A stretch of DNA of 64,000 nt from Arenimonas caeni (GTDB taxonomy: Bacteria > Pseudomonadota > Gammaproteobacteria > Xanthomonadales > Xanthomonadaceae), in contig NZ_KZ679093.1 of the NCBI RefSeq assembly GCF_003024235.1, positions 1-64,000 of the forward strand, in the 5' to 3' direction. The position numbers and the translations under genes are program-made. The notes under the pieces are model-generated. The model saw nothing but the letters and a program-made list of their open reading frames with translations. It was not told the DNA's origin and did no database searches. This document shows, piece by piece, positions 19,438-33,392 of this stretch (its first letter is position 1; the number at the start of each line of letters is the position of its first letter).

Positions 19438-19989
19438 ATGCCCGCCGATCGCTTCCGCCTCTATTCCGAAACCGACCTGGCGCTGGTGATCGACGACATG
19501 GCGCGCCAGGCCGCCGCCCTTCTCGACGCCACGCCGACCGTGCTGCTGGGCATGCTGCGTCGCGGCGCGCCGTTGGCCGACCGCCTGCTGGCCCGCATCC
19601 GCGTGCATGCGCCCTGGGCCGAAGTGTCGCGGCTGGACCTGAAAGTGAAGCGTTACGCCGACAACCTCGAACTGCTGCACCCCGAAACCGCGCTCGAAGC
19701 GCCGACCGGCGCCGACCTGATGAACCGCCGCGTCATCGTGGTAGACGACGTGCTCTACCAGGGCTATTCGCTGATGCGCGTGTTCGAGTGGCTGGCCACC
19801 CAGAAGCCCGCCCACGTGCACGCCGCCGTGCTGGTGGACCGCCAGCGCCACCGCATGCCGGTGCGCGCCGACATCGTCGGCCTCACGCTCAAGATCGCCC
19901 CCGACGACGTCATCGAGTGCAACGTGCCGCCCTACGAATCCGACTTCGCCGTCGACCTCTGGCGCCCCGCCGAATCGCCCAAGGGCTGA
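19438..19989 (+). CDS. PyrR-like phosphoribosyltransferase
   Basis: A 183-residue type I phosphoribosyltransferase. The PRPP-binding loop VIVVDDVLYQGYSL (about 98-111) is intact and a flexible region of LKVKRYADN type precedes it. Overall layout fits PyrR/uracil phosphoribosyltransferase-like enzymes. In some gammaproteobacteria PyrR is beside pyrB/pyrC; here no pyrimidine gene is adjacent, so whether it is a regulator or a salvage enzyme is open. ATG 19438 has GGAG nine bases upstream. Confidence 0.75.
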   Translation: MPADRFRLYSETDLALVIDDMARQAAALLDATPTVLLGMLRRGAPLADRLLARIRVHAPWAEVSRLDLKVKRYADNLELLHPETALEAPTGADLMNRRVIVVDDVLYQGYSLMRVFEWLATQKPAHVHAAVLVDRQRHRMPVRADIVGLTLKIAPDDVIECNVPPYESDFAVDLWRPAESPKG

Positions 19990-20006: not shown

Positions 20007-20816
20007 TCAGGACCTCGCGCGGACGTACAGATCCTTTCCGCCCGCCGCACTCGCCAGCTCCTTGAGCTCGAACCACTTCGGGTGCGCCTTGAACAGCTCG
20101 CTGAGCTTGCGGTGCCCGTACAGGCGCGGGTCGAAGTCTGAGCGCAGCTTGTTGAGGTAGCTGCCGACCGCGCCAAGCTGCGCCCAGCCCTCCTCGTCGC
20201 CGGCTTCTTCGATGGCCTGGTTGAGCAGTTTGCGTGGGGCCTGCTGCGGTGACTTGGGTTTCTCCGCCGGCGCCGCCGATTTGGCGGCCGACTTGGCCGG
20301 CGCCTTCCCGGCCGCCTTCGCAGGCTCCGGTTTTTCGACCTCGGTGGCTTCCTGGCGCAGCACCTCGGTGTAGATGAACTTGTCGCAGGCCTGCACGAAC
20401 GGATCAGGCGTCTTGCGCTCGCCGAAGCCATAGACCGTCAGCCCCGCCTCGCGCAGCCGCTGCGCCAGCCGGGTGAAGTCGCTGTCGCTCGACACCAGGC
20501 AGAAGCCGTCGAAGCGCCCCGTGTACATCAGGTCCATCGCGTCGATGATCAGCGAACTGTCGGTGGCGTTCTTGCCCGAGGTATAGGCGAACTGCTGCAC
20601 CGGGTGGATCGAGTGCTTGAGCAGCACCTGCTTCCAGCCCTGCAGCCGCTGCGAGGTGAAATCGCCATAGATGCGCTTGACGCTGGCGACGCCGAACTTC
20701 GCCACCTCGGCCAGCAAACCCTCGATCACCGAAGGCTGGGCGTTGTCGGCATCGATCAGGACCGCCAGATGGGCGGCGTCTGCATCCTGGGTGGAGCGGA
20801 CGTCATTCTTGGCCAT
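20007..20816 (-). CDS. NYN-domain ribonuclease-like protein with LOTUS/OST-HTH domain
   Basis: A 269-residue two-domain protein. Residues 15-160 form an NYN (LabA/DUF88, PIN-like) domain with acidic sites in LIDADN (D22, D24), D86 and SSDSDF (D111, D113), the pattern of a metal-dependent RNase. A Lys/Ala/Pro linker (about 160-190) leads to a LOTUS/OST-HTH winged helix (about 195-269), which binds RNA or G-quadruplexes in eukaryotic MARF1 and TDRD proteins. ATG 20816 is favoured because AGGAGG is 10 bases before it; the ATG nine bases upstream leaves only one base. The target RNA is unknown. It is next to an EVE-HNH nuclease gene, 33 bp away on the same strand. Confidence 0.85.
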   Translation of the reverse strand: MAKNDVRSTQDADAAHLAVLIDADNAQPSVIEGLLAEVAKFGVASVKRIYGDFTSQRLQGWKQVLLKHSIHPVQQFAYTSGKNATDSSLIIDAMDLMYTGRFDGFCLVSSDSDFTRLAQRLREAGLTVYGFGERKTPDPFVQACDKFIYTEVLRQEATEVEKPEPAKAAGKAPAKSAAKSAAPAEKPKSPQQAPRKLLNQAIEEAGDEEGWAQLGAVGSYLNKLRSDFDPRLYGHRKLSELFKAHPKWFELKELASAAGGKDLYVRARS

Positions 20817-20849
20817 TGGCTGCATGCCTCCTGTCGCGGCGAAGCGGTG

Positions 20850-21830
20850 CTAGTTCCGGTTACGTGATTCCAGGAACACGAAGTTTCGATGGAATTCGAG
20901 GTACTTCTTTTGCATTGAAGTAAACGAACCAACGTTGATCTTGGTATCCGTAGCAAGCCCCATCTTACCCAGGGAGGGTTTGTGTGCTACCGGTGAAACG
21001 AGCACGTCGCCGTTGTCCTTGAAGCTGATGAAGCCCCGGTCGAACAGATGATCCATGCTCGGCGTCAGCAACAAGCCGTTTTCGCCGTCGAGTCGCTCGC
21101 TGTTCGATGCATCCCGCCAGGGTTTGCAGTGGCTTGCTCTCAGGTGCTCGATCCTGTCGACCAAGGTTATCCGGCAGCGATGCTCACGCTTGAGCACATT
21201 CTCCTTGAACTTCCCTTGCCCGCGTCGGGCAAGGATTACTGCCAACCTGTCGGTCTCCGGGATGGACTTGTTGTTCTGCACTTCCGCGATCTGGTGCGCC
21301 TCCCATTCCACCAGTCCCACGGCGTCCGCGCGCAGACCCGCTGCGTCTTGCTGGAAGCTTGCCCGAACCAGATTGCGTGCGGCCTGGTCCATCAGACCAA
21401 GGAGGACGTTGGCGAAGGCTTCCGTAACCTCTGTCAGGTATACACCCTGCAGCCCCTTTCCATTGAACTGCAATGGCGCGTACTTCTCAGGAAGTACTTT
21501 GCCAATCAACTCCATGTGGTCCGCCGGGCGGGGCTGGACCATGAGTTCCACGAAGCCAACGTCCACCCGCCAACCCACCTTGTTCCAGTAGGCGCCGGCA
21601 TTCTGGAACTCGAGCGGCTTGGGGGCTTCGTAGGCATGCGAACGCGCTATGCCAATGGCCCTTATGCGCGTGTCGCAAAACGAGAACACGACATCCCCTG
21701 GCGCTACTTCCCTCATGAACTCATAGAAGGGGTTCCGATTGCCATTGGCATTTACCTTGGGCGACCAGAGGTAGTTTCCCCCTACTTCGTGGGCATACGT
21801 CTGGTTCTGGTTTACCCACCAATAGCGCAT
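20850..21830 (-). CDS. EVE-HNH endonuclease, putative modification-dependent (type IV) restriction enzyme
   Basis: A 326-residue protein. The N-terminal 150 residues match the EVE/PUA-like modified-base reader of EVE-HNH enzymes (MRYWWVNQNQTY, LWSPKVNANG, APGDVVFSF, AIGIARS). Residues about 210-275 form an HNH nuclease of the HNH_2 type with H229, H234, N251 and H261 visible. Known relatives such as VcaM4I cut DNA carrying modified cytosine, so defence against modified phage DNA is likely. Its third codon positions contain many more A and T than the flanking genes, a sign of recent transfer. Start 21830 fits the family's MRYWWVNQ; a longer in-frame start exists at 21869. No methyltransferase is adjacent, as expected for type IV. 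Confidence 0.82.
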   Translation of the reverse strand: MRYWWVNQNQTYAHEVGGNYLWSPKVNANGNRNPFYEFMREVAPGDVVFSFCDTRIRAIGIARSHAYEAPKPLEFQNAGAYWNKVGWRVDVGFVELMVQPRPADHMELIGKVLPEKYAPLQFNGKGLQGVYLTEVTEAFANVLLGLMDQAARNLVRASFQQDAAGLRADAVGLVEWEAHQIAEVQNNKSIPETDRLAVILARRGQGKFKENVLKREHRCRITLVDRIEHLRASHCKPWRDASNSERLDGENGLLLTPSMDHLFDRGFISFKDNGDVLVSPVAHKPSLGKMGLATDTKINVGSFTSMQKKYLEFHRNFVFLESRNRN

Positions 21831-21930
21831 GGCTCGGATCCGGCGACGCGGCCGCTCCAGGATAACCATGGCGGGCCGGGCAGGGCCAGGAGGAGGGAGG
21901 TTCGCTTGCCAGGCACAAGTCGGTCCTAAA

Positions 21931-21949
21931 GGCCCTCCTGCAGAGGGCC
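21931..21949 (-). terminator. Terminator-like hairpin downstream of 21966-22424
   Basis: GGCCCTC and GAGGGCC (seven pairs, five-base loop) lie 17 bp after the minus-strand gene's stop and are followed on that strand by TTTA. Weak intrinsic terminator. Confidence 0.4.
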
Positions 21950-21965
21950 GGGTGAGCAGGCGGAG

Positions 21966-22424
21966 TCAGTCCTGCCCGTCGTCGACAACTCGCGCACCGG
22001 TACTGGCGACGGCGGCGTGGGCGGCGGCGTGCTTGGCGGGCGAGGGCGAGGCGATGACGAGCAGCAGCTTGCCGTCCTGCACGAGCTCGCGGTAGCGGGC
22101 GCGCACGTCGTCGGTGGCGTGGTCGCCGCCGAGGGCGCGGAACCAGCCGGCGATGTTGCTGCCGAGCAGGCTGATCAGGCCCGCGCCGGCGACACTGACG
22201 CCCAGCGTGGGCACGGTGATCGCCGACAGGCCGGCCAGCAGGCCGCGCACGTGGCCCTGGGCGTCCGAGTCGCTGGCTCTGGGGTCGAGTTCGAGTTCGA
22301 TGTCGTGGCGCGCCACCAGGGCGATGTCTTCGTCGGCCACGCCGGCGGCGCGGGCCGCGGCCACGGCGTCTTCCAGCGCGGCCAGGTCGTCGAGGGCGAA
22401 GACGCTGCGGTGTTGTTCGCTCAT
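21966..22424 (-). CDS. Hypothetical stress-type protein with Gly-rich hydrophobic segment
   Basis: A 152-residue protein I do not recognise with confidence. It opens with an Ala-rich helical domain (LAALEDAVAAARAAGVADEDIAL) resembling the fold of heat-shock YflT/DUF1269-type proteins, has a Gly/Ala/Leu-rich stretch (LSAITVPTLGVSVAGAGLIS, about 66-90) long enough to insert in a membrane, and a C-terminal alpha/beta part that could be a second copy of the first fold. ATG 22424 has GGAGG six bases upstream. It follows the BON gene on the same strand with a hairpin between, so co-transcription is partial at most. The pairing with a BON protein suggests envelope or osmotic stress, as inference. 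Confidence 0.65.
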   Translation of the reverse strand: MSEQHRSVFALDDLAALEDAVAAARAAGVADEDIALVARHDIELELDPRASDSDAQGHVRGLLAGLSAITVPTLGVSVAGAGLISLLGSNIAGWFRALGGDHATDDVRARYRELVQDGKLLLVIASPSPAKHAAAHAAVASTGARVVDDGQD

Positions 22425-22519: not shown

Positions 22520-23140
22520 TTACTTGCGGACGACCCGCAGTTCGGTGGCCACCACGCTGCGCACGCCGCGGGTTTCCTGCGCCAGCTCGATGGCCTTGAT
22601 GCGGGCCTCGAGGCTCGGGGCGGTGCCGCTCAGGGTGACCACGTTGGCCTTCACGTCGACATTGATGTCGGTGCCCTTCACCTGGTCGTCGGCCAGCAGC
22701 TTGGACTTGACCTTGGTGGTGATCCAGGCGTCGTCGATGCCGTCGCCGGCCTCGTCCAGGCCCTCGCGGACCTCACCCGACAGGGTCGCGGTGTTGGCGT
22801 CCTGGCGCTTCTCGCTGCCGGGCGTGGCCACCACAAGGTTGTTCTTGATCAGCACCACGTTCTCGGCCTGGCCGGCCAGCTCGCTGGCGGCCAGCTTGGC
22901 GGCCAGGCTGTCGGCGCCGCCCTCGAGCGTGACCACGCCGTTGTGGGTGGTGACATTTATGTCGAAGCCCTTGGTGCGATCGTCGGCCAGCAGCTTGGTC
23001 TTCACCGAGGCGGTGATGGCGGCATCGGTGGCCACCTGGCTGGCGGTGCGCTCGGGCTTGTGGTCGTCGGCCAGCACGGGGGCGCTGCCGAGGGCCAGGG
23101 CGATGGTGGTGGCGAGCAGGGACGTCTTGATGGCGTTCAT
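22520..23140 (-). CDS. Periplasmic protein with two BON domains (OsmY-like)
   Basis: A 206-residue exported protein with a clear signal peptide (MNAIKTSLLATTIALALGS, cleavage after VLA). Two BON domains follow, about residues 35-110 and 125-206, each with the ITxxVKxKLLADD...INVxxxNGVVTLxG pattern. OsmY in E. coli is induced by osmotic and stationary stress and helps fold envelope proteins. ATG 23140 has AAGGAG seven bases before it. It is read leftward from the 330-bp gap that also holds the toxin-antitoxin promoter. Confidence 0.85.
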   Translation of the reverse strand: MNAIKTSLLATTIALALGSAPVLADDHKPERTASQVATDAAITASVKTKLLADDRTKGFDINVTTHNGVVTLEGGADSLAAKLAASELAGQAENVVLIKNNLVVATPGSEKRQDANTATLSGEVREGLDEAGDGIDDAWITTKVKSKLLADDQVKGTDINVDVKANVVTLSGTAPSLEARIKAIELAQETRGVRSVVATELRVVRK

Positions 23141-23413: not shown

Positions 23414-23462
23414 TTGAATTACTCCACAAGTGGAGTAGTCTGTCCTTGCACTCCACATGGAG
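23414..23462 (+). promoter_or_regulatory. Toxin-antitoxin promoter with two operator half-palindromes
   Basis: TTGAAT (23414-23419) and TAGTCT (23436-23441) are a possible -35/-10 pair with 16-bp spacing. A perfect palindrome TACTCCAC-AA-GTGGAGTA (23420-23437) fills the spacer. A shorter copy CTCCA-CA-TGGAG (23451-23462) overlaps the ribosome site. The shared CTCCA/TGGAG core and positions fit autorepression by the Xre-type antitoxin. Confidence 0.65.
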
Positions 23463-23471
23463 GAGGTCGTC

Positions 23472-23876
23472 ATGGCCCAGCGCCAACCCCGCCCCACCCC
23501 CGAGGCGCCACGGCCCGAACTCGGCGGCCCGGCGCTGCGCGCGTACTTCGCCATCACCGAGGCCTGGGGCCTGAAGAACGCCGAAGCCCGGCGCCTGCTC
23601 GGCGACCCGCCCGAGTCCACCTGGTACAAGTGGAAGAAGCTGCGCGACGGCCAGCCCGGCCGCGACGTGCTCGAGCGCATCAGCTACGTGCTGGGCATCT
23701 ACAAGGCCCTGCAGATCCTCTTCCCCGACCCGACCCGCGCCGACGCCTGGCTGCGCAAGCCCAACAGCGCACTGCCCTTCGGCGGCGGCTCGGCGCTCGA
23801 TCGCATGCTGTCGGGCAACGTCGCCGACCTGTACGTCGTGCGCAGCTACCTCGACGCCCAGCGCGGCTGGCAATGA
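23472..23876 (+). CDS. Xre/MbcA/ParS-family antitoxin
   Basis: A 134-residue antitoxin. The N-terminal half is an Xre-like helix-turn-helix (AITEAWGLKNAEARRLLGD, STWYKWKKL) and the C-terminal half is the DUF2384 toxin-binding domain (ERISYVLGIYKALQILFPDP, DAWLRKPNSALPFGGGSALDRML). Antitoxins of this family neutralise RES-domain NAD-degrading toxins and repress their own operon. ATG 23472 has GGAGGAGG four to six bases upstream; an in-frame ATG at 23457 lies inside the operator. The stop overlaps the toxin start (ATGA), usual for coupled toxin-antitoxin expression. Confidence 0.9.
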   Translation: MAQRQPRPTPEAPRPELGGPALRAYFAITEAWGLKNAEARRLLGDPPESTWYKWKKLRDGQPGRDVLERISYVLGIYKALQILFPDPTRADAWLRKPNSALPFGGGSALDRMLSGNVADLYVVRSYLDAQRGWQ

Positions 23877-24556
23877 AGGCGCCACGCCTGGCCCGCGTCG
23901 ACTGGCCAGAGGCCTGGCGCCTCGTGCCCAGTCGCTTCCCGCCGCAGGGTGTGTTCGACCGCATCGCCCGGCCCGAGGACCTCGAGGCGCTGTACCTGCT
24001 CGAGTCGCTGACCAACCCGCGCCTGCGCGAGGAGCTGGGGCAGCTGCAGCTGGTGCCGAGGGCGCGGCGGGTCAGTGGCCCGGGCACGCAGCCGGTCATG
24101 GCCGCCTTCACCCACCTCAATCCGGCCGGCAGCCGGTTCAGCGATGGCAGCTACGGCGTGTTCTACGCCGCGCGCACGCTCGACACCGCCATCGCCGAAA
24201 CCATGCACCACCGCGCCGCCTTCATGGCCGCCACCAACGAGCCGGCGATGAACATCGAGATGCGCTGCTACCGCACCGCCATCCGCGCCCGCCTGCACGA
24301 CCTGCGCCGCGGCTGGCAGGCCATGCTGCGCCCCGACGACTACGGCCCGCCGCAGGCGCTTGCGCGCACGCTGCGCACCGAAGGTTCCGACGGGGTCGTC
24401 TATCCCAGCGTTCGCCACGCCGGCGGGCAGTGCGTGGGCGTGTTCCACCCGGACGTGGTCGCGCCCTGCGTGCAGGCGCGGCACCTGGTCTATTACTGGG
24501 ACGGCCAGCGCATCCTGCCCGACTACGCCATCGCCACGCGCTCCAGCCTGGCCTAG
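23873..24556 (+). CDS. RES-domain toxin (NAD-degrading, MbcT-like)
   Basis: A 227-residue RES-domain protein. The family's Arg-Glu-Ser landmarks are visible: R21 in LVPSRF, RFSDGSYGVFYAARTLDTAIAET with its Glu, and SDGVVYPSVRHAGGQCVGVF with its Ser. Characterised members (MbcT, ParT) degrade NAD+ or ADP-ribosylate PRPP synthetase. It starts within the antitoxin stop. Its TAG shares the CTAG tetramer with the stop of the convergent sensor gene, leaving no intergenic space. Confidence 0.9.
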   Translation: MKAPRLARVDWPEAWRLVPSRFPPQGVFDRIARPEDLEALYLLESLTNPRLREELGQLQLVPRARRVSGPGTQPVMAAFTHLNPAGSRFSDGSYGVFYAARTLDTAIAETMHHRAAFMAATNEPAMNIEMRCYRTAIRARLHDLRRGWQAMLRPDDYGPPQALARTLRTEGSDGVVYPSVRHAGGQCVGVFHPDVVAPCVQARHLVYYWDGQRILPDYAIATRSSLA

Positions 24557-32940: not shown

Positions 32941-32980
32941 CTGTTTGACCTGGCGTGGGGGAGCACACTATCTTGGGGTC

Positions 32981-33162
32981 GTCGGTCCCGGGTGCCACAA
33001 GCACTTGGGTTAATAGGGAAGCCGGTGGGAATCCGGCACTGCCCCGCAGCGGTATGTGGAAACGACCGCCGTCATGAGCACTGGGACCCCGGGTCCCGGG
33101 AAGCGACGGCCAGTAGGAGAGGCGCCCGCGCCTCGCGTCCACGAGTCCGAAGACCTGCCGAC
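32981..33162 (+). promoter_or_regulatory. Adenosylcobalamin riboswitch
   Basis: Class hallmark sequences occur in order: GGTGCCAC, GGGAAGCCGGTG, GAATCCGGCACTG, CCCCGCAGCGGTA (33011-33053, the B12 box) and CCGAAGACCTGCCG near the 3' end. Outer stem P1 can form between GTCGG (32981-32985) and CCGAC (33158-33162). It lies 230 bp before nrdA. Such switches shut off B12-independent ribonucleotide reductase when B12 is present. Confidence 0.92.
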
Positions 33163-33392
33163 AGCCGCGCGCATGCACGCCGCGCGGTGACCGGCCCATG
33201 GGTCTCCGGGGGGAGACGGCGCCGGTGTCGTGGCGCCGCGTCCCGCCGGCTGCGACACCCGTTCTGCATCCTCCCGTAGTCCCGACGCCCGCGGGGGCGT
33301 GGTCGCGAGGGCGCATCGCGCCGTCGTCCCGTTCCCGTGCGCCGCCTTCCGAGGGAGGGGCGGCGGCCGTGCGCCATGCACCGGAGAACGCC
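33163..33392 (+). other. Expression platform / leader between riboswitch and nrdA
   Basis: The 230-bp leader contains two strong hairpins: CCGCGCG (33165-33171) with CGCGCGG (33181-33187), and GTCTCC (33202-33207) with GGAGAC (33212-33217). Neither has a T-run, so Rho-dependent or translational control is more likely than intrinsic termination. The ribosome site GGAG is nine bases before the nrdA start. No trustworthy gene lies here. Confidence 0.5.

Follow-up and report, generated by a model that had tools for sequence, protein, structure and literature searches.

A probably imported EVE-HNH nuclease gene of Arenimonas caeni and a CCWGG-containing -10-like element that recurs upstream of its relatives in Lysobacteraceae

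Introduction

How can a nuclease that is predicted to cut DNA with modified cytosines reside in a genome that probably methylates its own cytosines? The question is raised by a solitary EVE-HNH gene in a stretch of 64,000 nucleotides from Arenimonas caeni, here called the window. It is only partly understood how type IV enzymes can pass from host to host and leave a methylated genome uncut. The portion of PMC3874153 available here treats their compatibility with resident methyltransferases, and names Dcm of E. coli K12 as compatible with McrA, McrBC and Mrr. One locus with demonstrated promoter methylation was found, in the accessible text of PMC8989522. In the following, the enzyme, the region upstream of its gene, the methyltransferases of its hosts and the origin of the gene are considered in turn. 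The features are listed in Table 1.

Table 1. Coordinates and basis of the features in the window and in related loci
Feature	Position	Strand	Basis or remark
EVE-HNH endonuclease CDS, 326 aa	20850..21830	-	ORF, Pfam, phmmer, GC3, residue alignment
Domain limits in the EVE-HNH enzyme	EVE ~1-147, HNH ~188-326 (residues)		alignment to VcaM4I
-10-like element TATCCTGG, containing CCTGG (CCWGG)	21857..21864	-	starts 34 nt before ATG; putative function
Intergenic region upstream of EVE-HNH	21831..21965	-	three CCWGG sites (21857, 21886, 21909)
NYN + OST-HTH/LOTUS gene	20007..20825	-	24 bp downstream of EVE-HNH gene; neighbour, not counted as part of enzyme system
Phosphoribosyltransferase-domain gene	19438..19989	+	anchor of variable neighbourhood; domain search and comparison
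Gene of unknown family, alternative start 22502	21966..22424	-	anchor on other side
BON-domain gene	22520..23140	-	anchor
Xre antitoxin (23457-23876) and RES toxin (23873-24556)	23457..24556	+	domain search; not part of import
SRA-HNH alleles	L152:6734-7735 and L155:8813-9814		same insertion, two close species

Results and Discussion

The gene encodes a predicted modification-dependent enzyme

The open reading frame starts with an ATG at 21830. A second in-frame ATG is located at 21869, and matches to homologs begin only at the ATG at 21830. Were translation to begin at 21869 instead, the TATCCTGG motif would lie within the gene. A simple gene finder trained on the window left the ORF uncalled. 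The Pfam model HNH_2 scored above its cut-off (29.7 versus 21 bits), and the EVE model remained below its own (13.8 bits, cut-off 23). PADLOC assigned the protein to HNH restriction families. By means of phmmer, VcaM4I of Vibrio campbellii (PDB 6yex) was matched across residues 1-320 with an E-value of 7.1e-77.

The two proteins share domain order, length and 135 of 307 aligned residues (44%); the window enzyme has an insertion of nine residues in the linker. Residue roles were taken from the portion of PMC7897488 that was available. All eight pocket positions checked (Q10, T11, E15, W22, S23, P24, W82, Y130) and all four HNH positions checked (H224, N241, D250, D254) are the same as in VcaM4I. 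Non-matching is F132 of VcaM4I, which corresponds to T133, so that identity holds at 12 of the 13 pocket and catalytic positions checked. This exchange argues against the assignment, as a VcaM4I double variant including a change of F132 was impaired according to that text. The same source reports that VcaM4I digests 5hmC DNA faster than 5mC DNA and restricts T4gt, and states that there are no data on the sequence specificity of its EVE domain.

No methyltransferase was found among the immediate neighbours scanned, and the gene is thus solitary. The earlier note had proposed a modification-dependent type IV enzyme, which is supported by the homology to VcaM4I and the kept residues. We are highly confident in the prediction of a solitary, modification-dependent type IV EVE-HNH enzyme. 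Judging from the kept residues, the EVE domain would take up a flipped modified cytosine in its pocket, and cleavage of the DNA would fall to the HNH domain, as was shown for VcaM4I. The predicted target is virus DNA with modified cytosines, with 5mC or 5hmC as putative substrates. On its own, the protein is an already known kind of enzyme.

A -10-like element overlapping CCWGG recurs upstream of EVE-HNH genes

A Dcm-type site (CCWGG) overlaps the -10-like element TATCCTGG, which may serve as a -10 element. The three CCWGG sites upstream of the gene were also considered for their number, which was rejected as remarkable: at least three occur in 8.4% of 135-bp windows and upstream of 4 of 55 genes, and shuffles gave P 0.067. 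As the number is unremarkable, only the overlap with the -10 stood out among the upstream CCWGG features.

The upstream regions of 98 EVE-HNH genes were compared, 27 from Lysobacteraceae and 71 from other or unassigned taxa. Two of the records (L115 and L116) derive from MAGs and bear the title Bordetella parapertussis; only their EVE-HNH genes and upstreams were used. Between positions -40 and -18, CCTGG was the commonest 5-mer in the 98 upstreams (16 upstreams versus 3 in a control zone), and CCWGG ranked first of 32 palindromic pentamers (22 versus 5 in the control zone). The motif TANCCTGG occurred between -45 and -15 in 11 of the 27 Lysobacteraceae upstreams and in 2 of 305 background upstreams (Fisher p 8e-12). 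This background was restricted to genes with strong GC3 bias, and a scan of low-GC3 genes was then run to cover the rest. Between -50 and -15 the motif was present in 12 of 27, whereas 2000 shuffled sets gave a mean of 0.07 and a maximum of 2. It is absent from the remaining 15 and from all 71 upstreams of the other group. That group contains one member of the window's genus (L071) and one that seems to belong to it (L092), and the family count may therefore be written as 12/29. The sequence around TANCCTGG is only 0.29 identical on average and 0.44 at most, and the motif needs at least eight changes on the tree.

In many upstreams, a G-rich stretch resembling a ribosome-binding site was seen by eye between motif and ATG. 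The best -35 match averages 3.25 of six positions compared to 2.64 in shuffles (P 0.008), with only 3/6 in the window. In the upstream region of the window's gene, a simple consensus scan gave no sigma-70 promoter.

In order to cover further genes, 888,885 bases of Lysobacteraceae DNA were considered, which contain 39 copies of TANCCTGG, 17 of them outside called genes. Eight of these 17 have a called gene at most 70 nt downstream: one EVE-HNH gene (L199), SRA-HNH genes (three copies, L152 and L155), two PDC-S41 genes (L164, L170) and two ORFs (L156, L188) that run antisense to conserved genes. One further intergenic copy precedes the EVE-HNH gene of L240. The PDC-S41 (SLFN-g3 helicase) genes are phage-defence candidates (L164:4148-6133 and L170:10121-12097, both on the minus strand), with TATCCTGG beginning 29 and 35 nt upstream of the called starts. 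Fourteen SRA-HNH loci were found, and the motif precedes 4 of the 12 genes with a readable upstream (G014, G012, G188, G054), a count that includes both G014 and G012 although these share one insertion. In G188 and G054 it lies merely 12-13 nt before the likely ATG.

In the wider scan, none of 255 genes with a GC3 of at least 0.82 had the motif. Among 358 low-GC3 genes, a set that may also include uncounted EVE-HNH genes lacking the motif, 11 hits were obtained, and 8 of these are EVE-HNH genes by their coordinates. The other three are the L164 PDC-S41 gene, the gene of an HNH enzyme in L257, whose start is preceded by TAACCTGG at a distance of about 30 nt, and an ORF in L156 (1090-3591), which gave no Pfam match and runs antisense to a conserved gene. 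Of the eight further copies among the 17 outside called genes, four (L102: 2956, 4282, 4873, 7330) are found upstream of the EVE-HNH gene of Lysobacter enzymogenes within a stretch of about 5 kb; the immediate upstream of that gene is devoid of the motif.

Methyltransferases in genomes with EVE-HNH genes

The genome of the window (G000) encodes two C5 methyltransferases. The first, on contig C7, is adjoined by Vsr and an EcoRII-C nuclease, with an integrase near. A gene in its vicinity is, as we take it, rpoD, and the EcoRII-group context presumably implies methylation of CCWGG or CCNGG. The EcoRII-C and Vsr neighbours point to CCWGG as the putative specificity, and the genome thus probably makes CmCWGG.

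The region of C7 around this system (L197/L198, 42000-80000), which is outside the window, is a defence island with the integrase, the EcoRII-C/Vsr/C5-methyltransferase genes, an SNF2 helicase, an MzaB-like ATPase and an HNH protein. The second C5 methyltransferase, together with a GHKL-type ATPase, follows about 18 kb further along.

The distribution of methyltransferases was determined for 297 family genomes. C5 methyltransferases (PF00145) were found in 5 of 24 genomes with a full-length EVE-HNH gene and in 142 of 273 without (p 0.005). Dcm-like enzymes, defined by at least 60% identity to the EcoRII-type enzyme of G000, were not depleted (3/24 versus 25/273, p 0.48), whereas genomes with only other C5 enzymes were (2/24 versus 117/273, p 0.0008; relatedness is ignored in this comparison). 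The control family PF02384 occurred in 18/24 and 188/273 genomes, respectively (p 0.65). Within the genus, C5 methyltransferases were not depleted (3/8 versus 5/19). The three genomes that combine EVE-HNH with a Dcm-like methyltransferase (G000, G202, G217) all have the motif, compared to 9 of 22 others that were read, and in all three Vsr adjoins the Dcm-like gene.

Methylation may gate the promoter

We propose that the EVE-HNH promoter would use TATCCTGG, with its CCWGG site, as the -10 element, and that Dcm- or EcoRII-type methylation of this site would repress transcription. The nuclease would then be off in a host that makes CmCWGG, of which the window's genome is probably one, and on in a host devoid of CmCWGG. 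Host methylation may in this way silence the enzyme before it attacks host DNA. Both the promoter function of TATCCTGG and its silencing are putative, and for methylation gating we see a chance that comes close to even and falls slightly short of it.

A precedent is given by Birkholz et al., who, in the part of PMC8989522 at hand, describe a Dcm-related methyltransferase (M.PcaRCI) that silences an HNH modification-dependent nuclease (PcaRCII) of Pectobacterium carotovorum via CCTGG over a predicted extended -10. Judged from that part, both cases have in common an HNH nuclease gene, CCTGG over a -10 (putative in the window) and a co-resident Dcm-related methyltransferase (here on contig C7, with its predicted specificity). 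PcaRCII differs in its N-terminal domain, and silencing has been demonstrated there, whereas for the window gene it is proposed. Furthermore, in contrast to the single locus described for PcaRCII, the element recurs here in 12 of 27 upstreams of one gene family. A literature search that covered the minority of full texts gave no recurrent CCWGG over a -10 before type IV genes besides PMC8989522, and a 2026 review (PMC13076061) makes no mention of PcaRCII or Birkholz. The recurrent -10/CCWGG element therefore appears to be new.

The main alternative is an ordinary imported EVE-HNH gene, in which TANCCTGG is a preferred -10 form or the site of a shared regulator and the CCWGG overlap has no regulatory effect; this is a serious possibility, held at somewhat below even confidence. 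The evidence divides between the two explanations. Three further upstreams contain TANNCTGG without CCWGG, and the -10 alone may therefore be what has been retained. In addition, a Dcm-like methyltransferase is absent from the genomes of 9 of the 12 motif carriers, and the motif also precedes PDC-S41 genes. Gating is further disfavoured by the 15 of 27 Lysobacteraceae upstreams and the 71 of 71 others that lack the motif, by the missing sigma-70 call and the poor -35 match of the window, by the undiminished C5 methyltransferases within the genus, by the second C5 methyltransferase of G000, and by a family test that ignores relatedness. On the other hand, conservation does not stop at the -10 hexamer but includes the GG with which CCTGG is complete, 12 of 15 copies of TANNCTGG carry the C that makes CCWGG, and the silencing of PcaRCII, as described in the available part of PMC8989522, is a tested precedent; all three speak against a plain -10 or regulator site.

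If methylation gating holds, it would explain how the window's genome can keep an EcoRII-type system together with a 5mC-sensing nuclease. The statement in full, which joins the enzyme, its import and the gated promoter, likewise stands only just on the doubtful side of balanced. Extended to the family, it would mean that solitary mobile nucleases of Lysobacteraceae (EVE-HNH, SRA-HNH, one other HNH enzyme and the PDC-S41 candidates) repeatedly gained TANCCTGG as a self-tolerance switch that is off in Dcm-methylating hosts and permits spread among, and coexistence with, EcoRII/Dcm-type systems. We regard this extension as tentative, with the balance tilting against it. If true, CCWGG over the -10 of separately acquired nucleases would turn a single case into a family-wide rule, and such nucleases could be recognised from their promoters.

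The EVE-HNH gene was probably imported

The GC3 of the EVE-HNH gene is 0.724, compared to a mean of 0.934 (sd 0.024, minimum 0.856) for the 55 other called genes of the window. The lower third-position bias that the earlier note had claimed was thus recovered along the window, where a GC3 equal to that of the neighbours did not occur. All eight genus genomes with a full-length copy have a lower GC3 in EVE-HNH (0.64-0.79) than in gyrB (0.77-0.92). Enough flanking sequence was available for 75 named loci, and in 60 of them the EVE-HNH gene is GC-poorer than its surroundings; the mean difference is -4.2 points, with a slope of 0.49 on flank GC. Genes of this kind are thus normally GC-poorer than their host.

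Full-length copies are present in 8 of 27 genus genomes and in 24 of 297 family genomes. The 19 genus genomes without one (some of the genomes are incomplete) speak against universal conservation. The nearest relative by gyrB (G009, 95%) lacks the gene at this site: the matches to the NYN gene and to the next gene lie at most 64 bp apart. Because of the empty site in the nearest relative and the patchy distribution in genus and family, the gene looks imported; together with its GC3, these findings uphold the proposed foreign origin, and horizontal acquisition is assumed with good confidence.

Phage or plasmid as the present carrier was considered and rejected. Two phage records matched, over 43% of the protein. 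Plasmids gave 80 matching records, 16 of them over at least 80% of the protein and every one below 60% identity. Four viral contigs contain EVE-HNH relatives with 45-48% identity.

In G023, a relative in the genus, the neighbourhood likewise contains an EVE-HNH gene. It is the sister of the window's gene in a 97-row tree (support 100/96), and the two are 67% identical, which lies within the 50-95% identity of neighbouring genes between both genomes. It could thus be assumed that an ancestral gene was present in the common ancestor of both species and was lost in the lineages between them. This we consider unlikely. In the gyrB tree (gyrB was used because 8 of the 27 genomes, G023 included, gave no rpoB match), several lineages that lack the gene at this place fall between the two hosts. 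Moreover, the same codon is used at 0.44 of the identical residues, with 0.39 expected from independent choice. Silent sites have therefore largely turned over, yet both genes keep a GC3 (0.65-0.72) far below that of the neighbours in G023 (0.90-0.96), and this is hard to square with long residence. In our reading, related genes from a pool of lower GC arrived separately in the two hosts.

The neighbourhood is plastic

Regions from 19 other genus genomes were compared with that of the window. The neighbourhood around the phosphoribosyltransferase gene was seen in 12 of these 20 genomes, G015 having part of it only. EVE-HNH is present in two of the 12 (G000, G023), SRA-HNH in two (G012, G014) and neither in eight, two of which (G007, G017) have a contig end beside NYN that leaves one side unseen. 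Six genus genomes carry EVE-HNH elsewhere, and the locus comparison covered five of them, that is, all except G026. In G011 and G004 the gene is on another contig than the neighbourhood, and no window gene was found beside it in G002, G019 and G020.

The neighbourhood is therefore plastic, with other modification-dependent nucleases in related species. The small defence hotspot that had been suspected at 20-24.6 kb stands insofar as different nucleases lie between shared anchors in 4 of the 12 neighbourhoods; as one imported island it does not, since GC3 is strongly aberrant in the EVE-HNH gene only (NYN-LOTUS 0.888, Xre 0.950, RES 0.938). In the portion of PMC12707154 considered, the immigration control region of enteric bacteria likewise has variable restriction genes between shared anchors. 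Compared to that region, the neighbourhood here is small, holds single nuclease genes, and varies in non-defence genes too.

The NYN-LOTUS gene beside EVE-HNH and the toxin-antitoxin pair close by were both confirmed by domain search. The Xre/RES pair was rejected as part of the import; its GC3 is host-like and it is present in 4 of 12 neighbourhoods. A role of NYN-LOTUS as a defence gene could not be sustained: it is found in 18 of 27 genus genomes, it has no PADLOC hit, and none of 80 named EVE-HNH loci, of which some are short, contains a homolog. For the last reason, a joint system with EVE-HNH was rejected as well. That the EVE-HNH enzyme would be no phage-restriction enzyme at all, with another substrate or as a partner of the NYN-LOTUS protein, is very improbable: the common strand, the spacing of 24 bp and the SRA-HNH gene just downstream of NYN on the same strand in G012 and G014 are in its favour, and it is opposed by those 80 loci, by NYN genes that adjoin neither nuclease in relatives such as G009 and G005, and by the 5mC/5hmC pocket, in which every tested residue of the eight is kept. 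EVE-HNH appears a single time in PMC7641849, which contains no mention of NYN or LOTUS.

In G012 and G014, another HNH enzyme is encoded between NYN and the phosphoribosyltransferase gene; the corresponding gap in G005 measures about 50 bp. The profile of this second enzyme matches VcaM4I in its HNH half (E 9.4e-42) and ScoMcrA in its N-terminal part (E 0.0012). A structure model of low confidence (mean pLDDT 57.6) gave TagI as first match, followed by VcaM4I and many SRA domains. The second nuclease can thus be described as SRA-HNH-like: as in TagI and ScoMcrA, its N-terminal half resembles SRA, and its sensor domain accordingly differs from the EVE domain of the window enzyme, as far as a model of that confidence allows. 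Its GC3 is 0.67-0.68. Both species have the same junctions. In 150-bp blocks the gene is 0.69-0.81 identical between them, compared to 0.82-0.98 for the flanking blocks, save one short block at 0.73. The same codon is used at 0.54 of the shared residues, compared to 0.94 in gyrB. Since the alleles are far more diverged than most of their flanks and differ at silent sites too, the restriction gene was probably exchanged allelically in place.

Farther along the window, a cobalamin riboswitch (RF00174, 107.7 bits) is located at 32966-33176 on the plus strand. Two minor observations concern the neighbourhood of the EVE-HNH gene. A gene for an M64-family peptidase (L154:7128-8531), with look-alikes in L152:4422-5903 and L153:5563-7020, is located between NYN and the BON-side genes and is absent from the window. 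In the window, a GGCCCTC/GAGGGCC hairpin followed by TTT (21928-21950, minus strand) was noticed by eye and went unreported in a simple scan; it is absent from the gap sequence of G009 and is perhaps the terminator of the gene at 21966.
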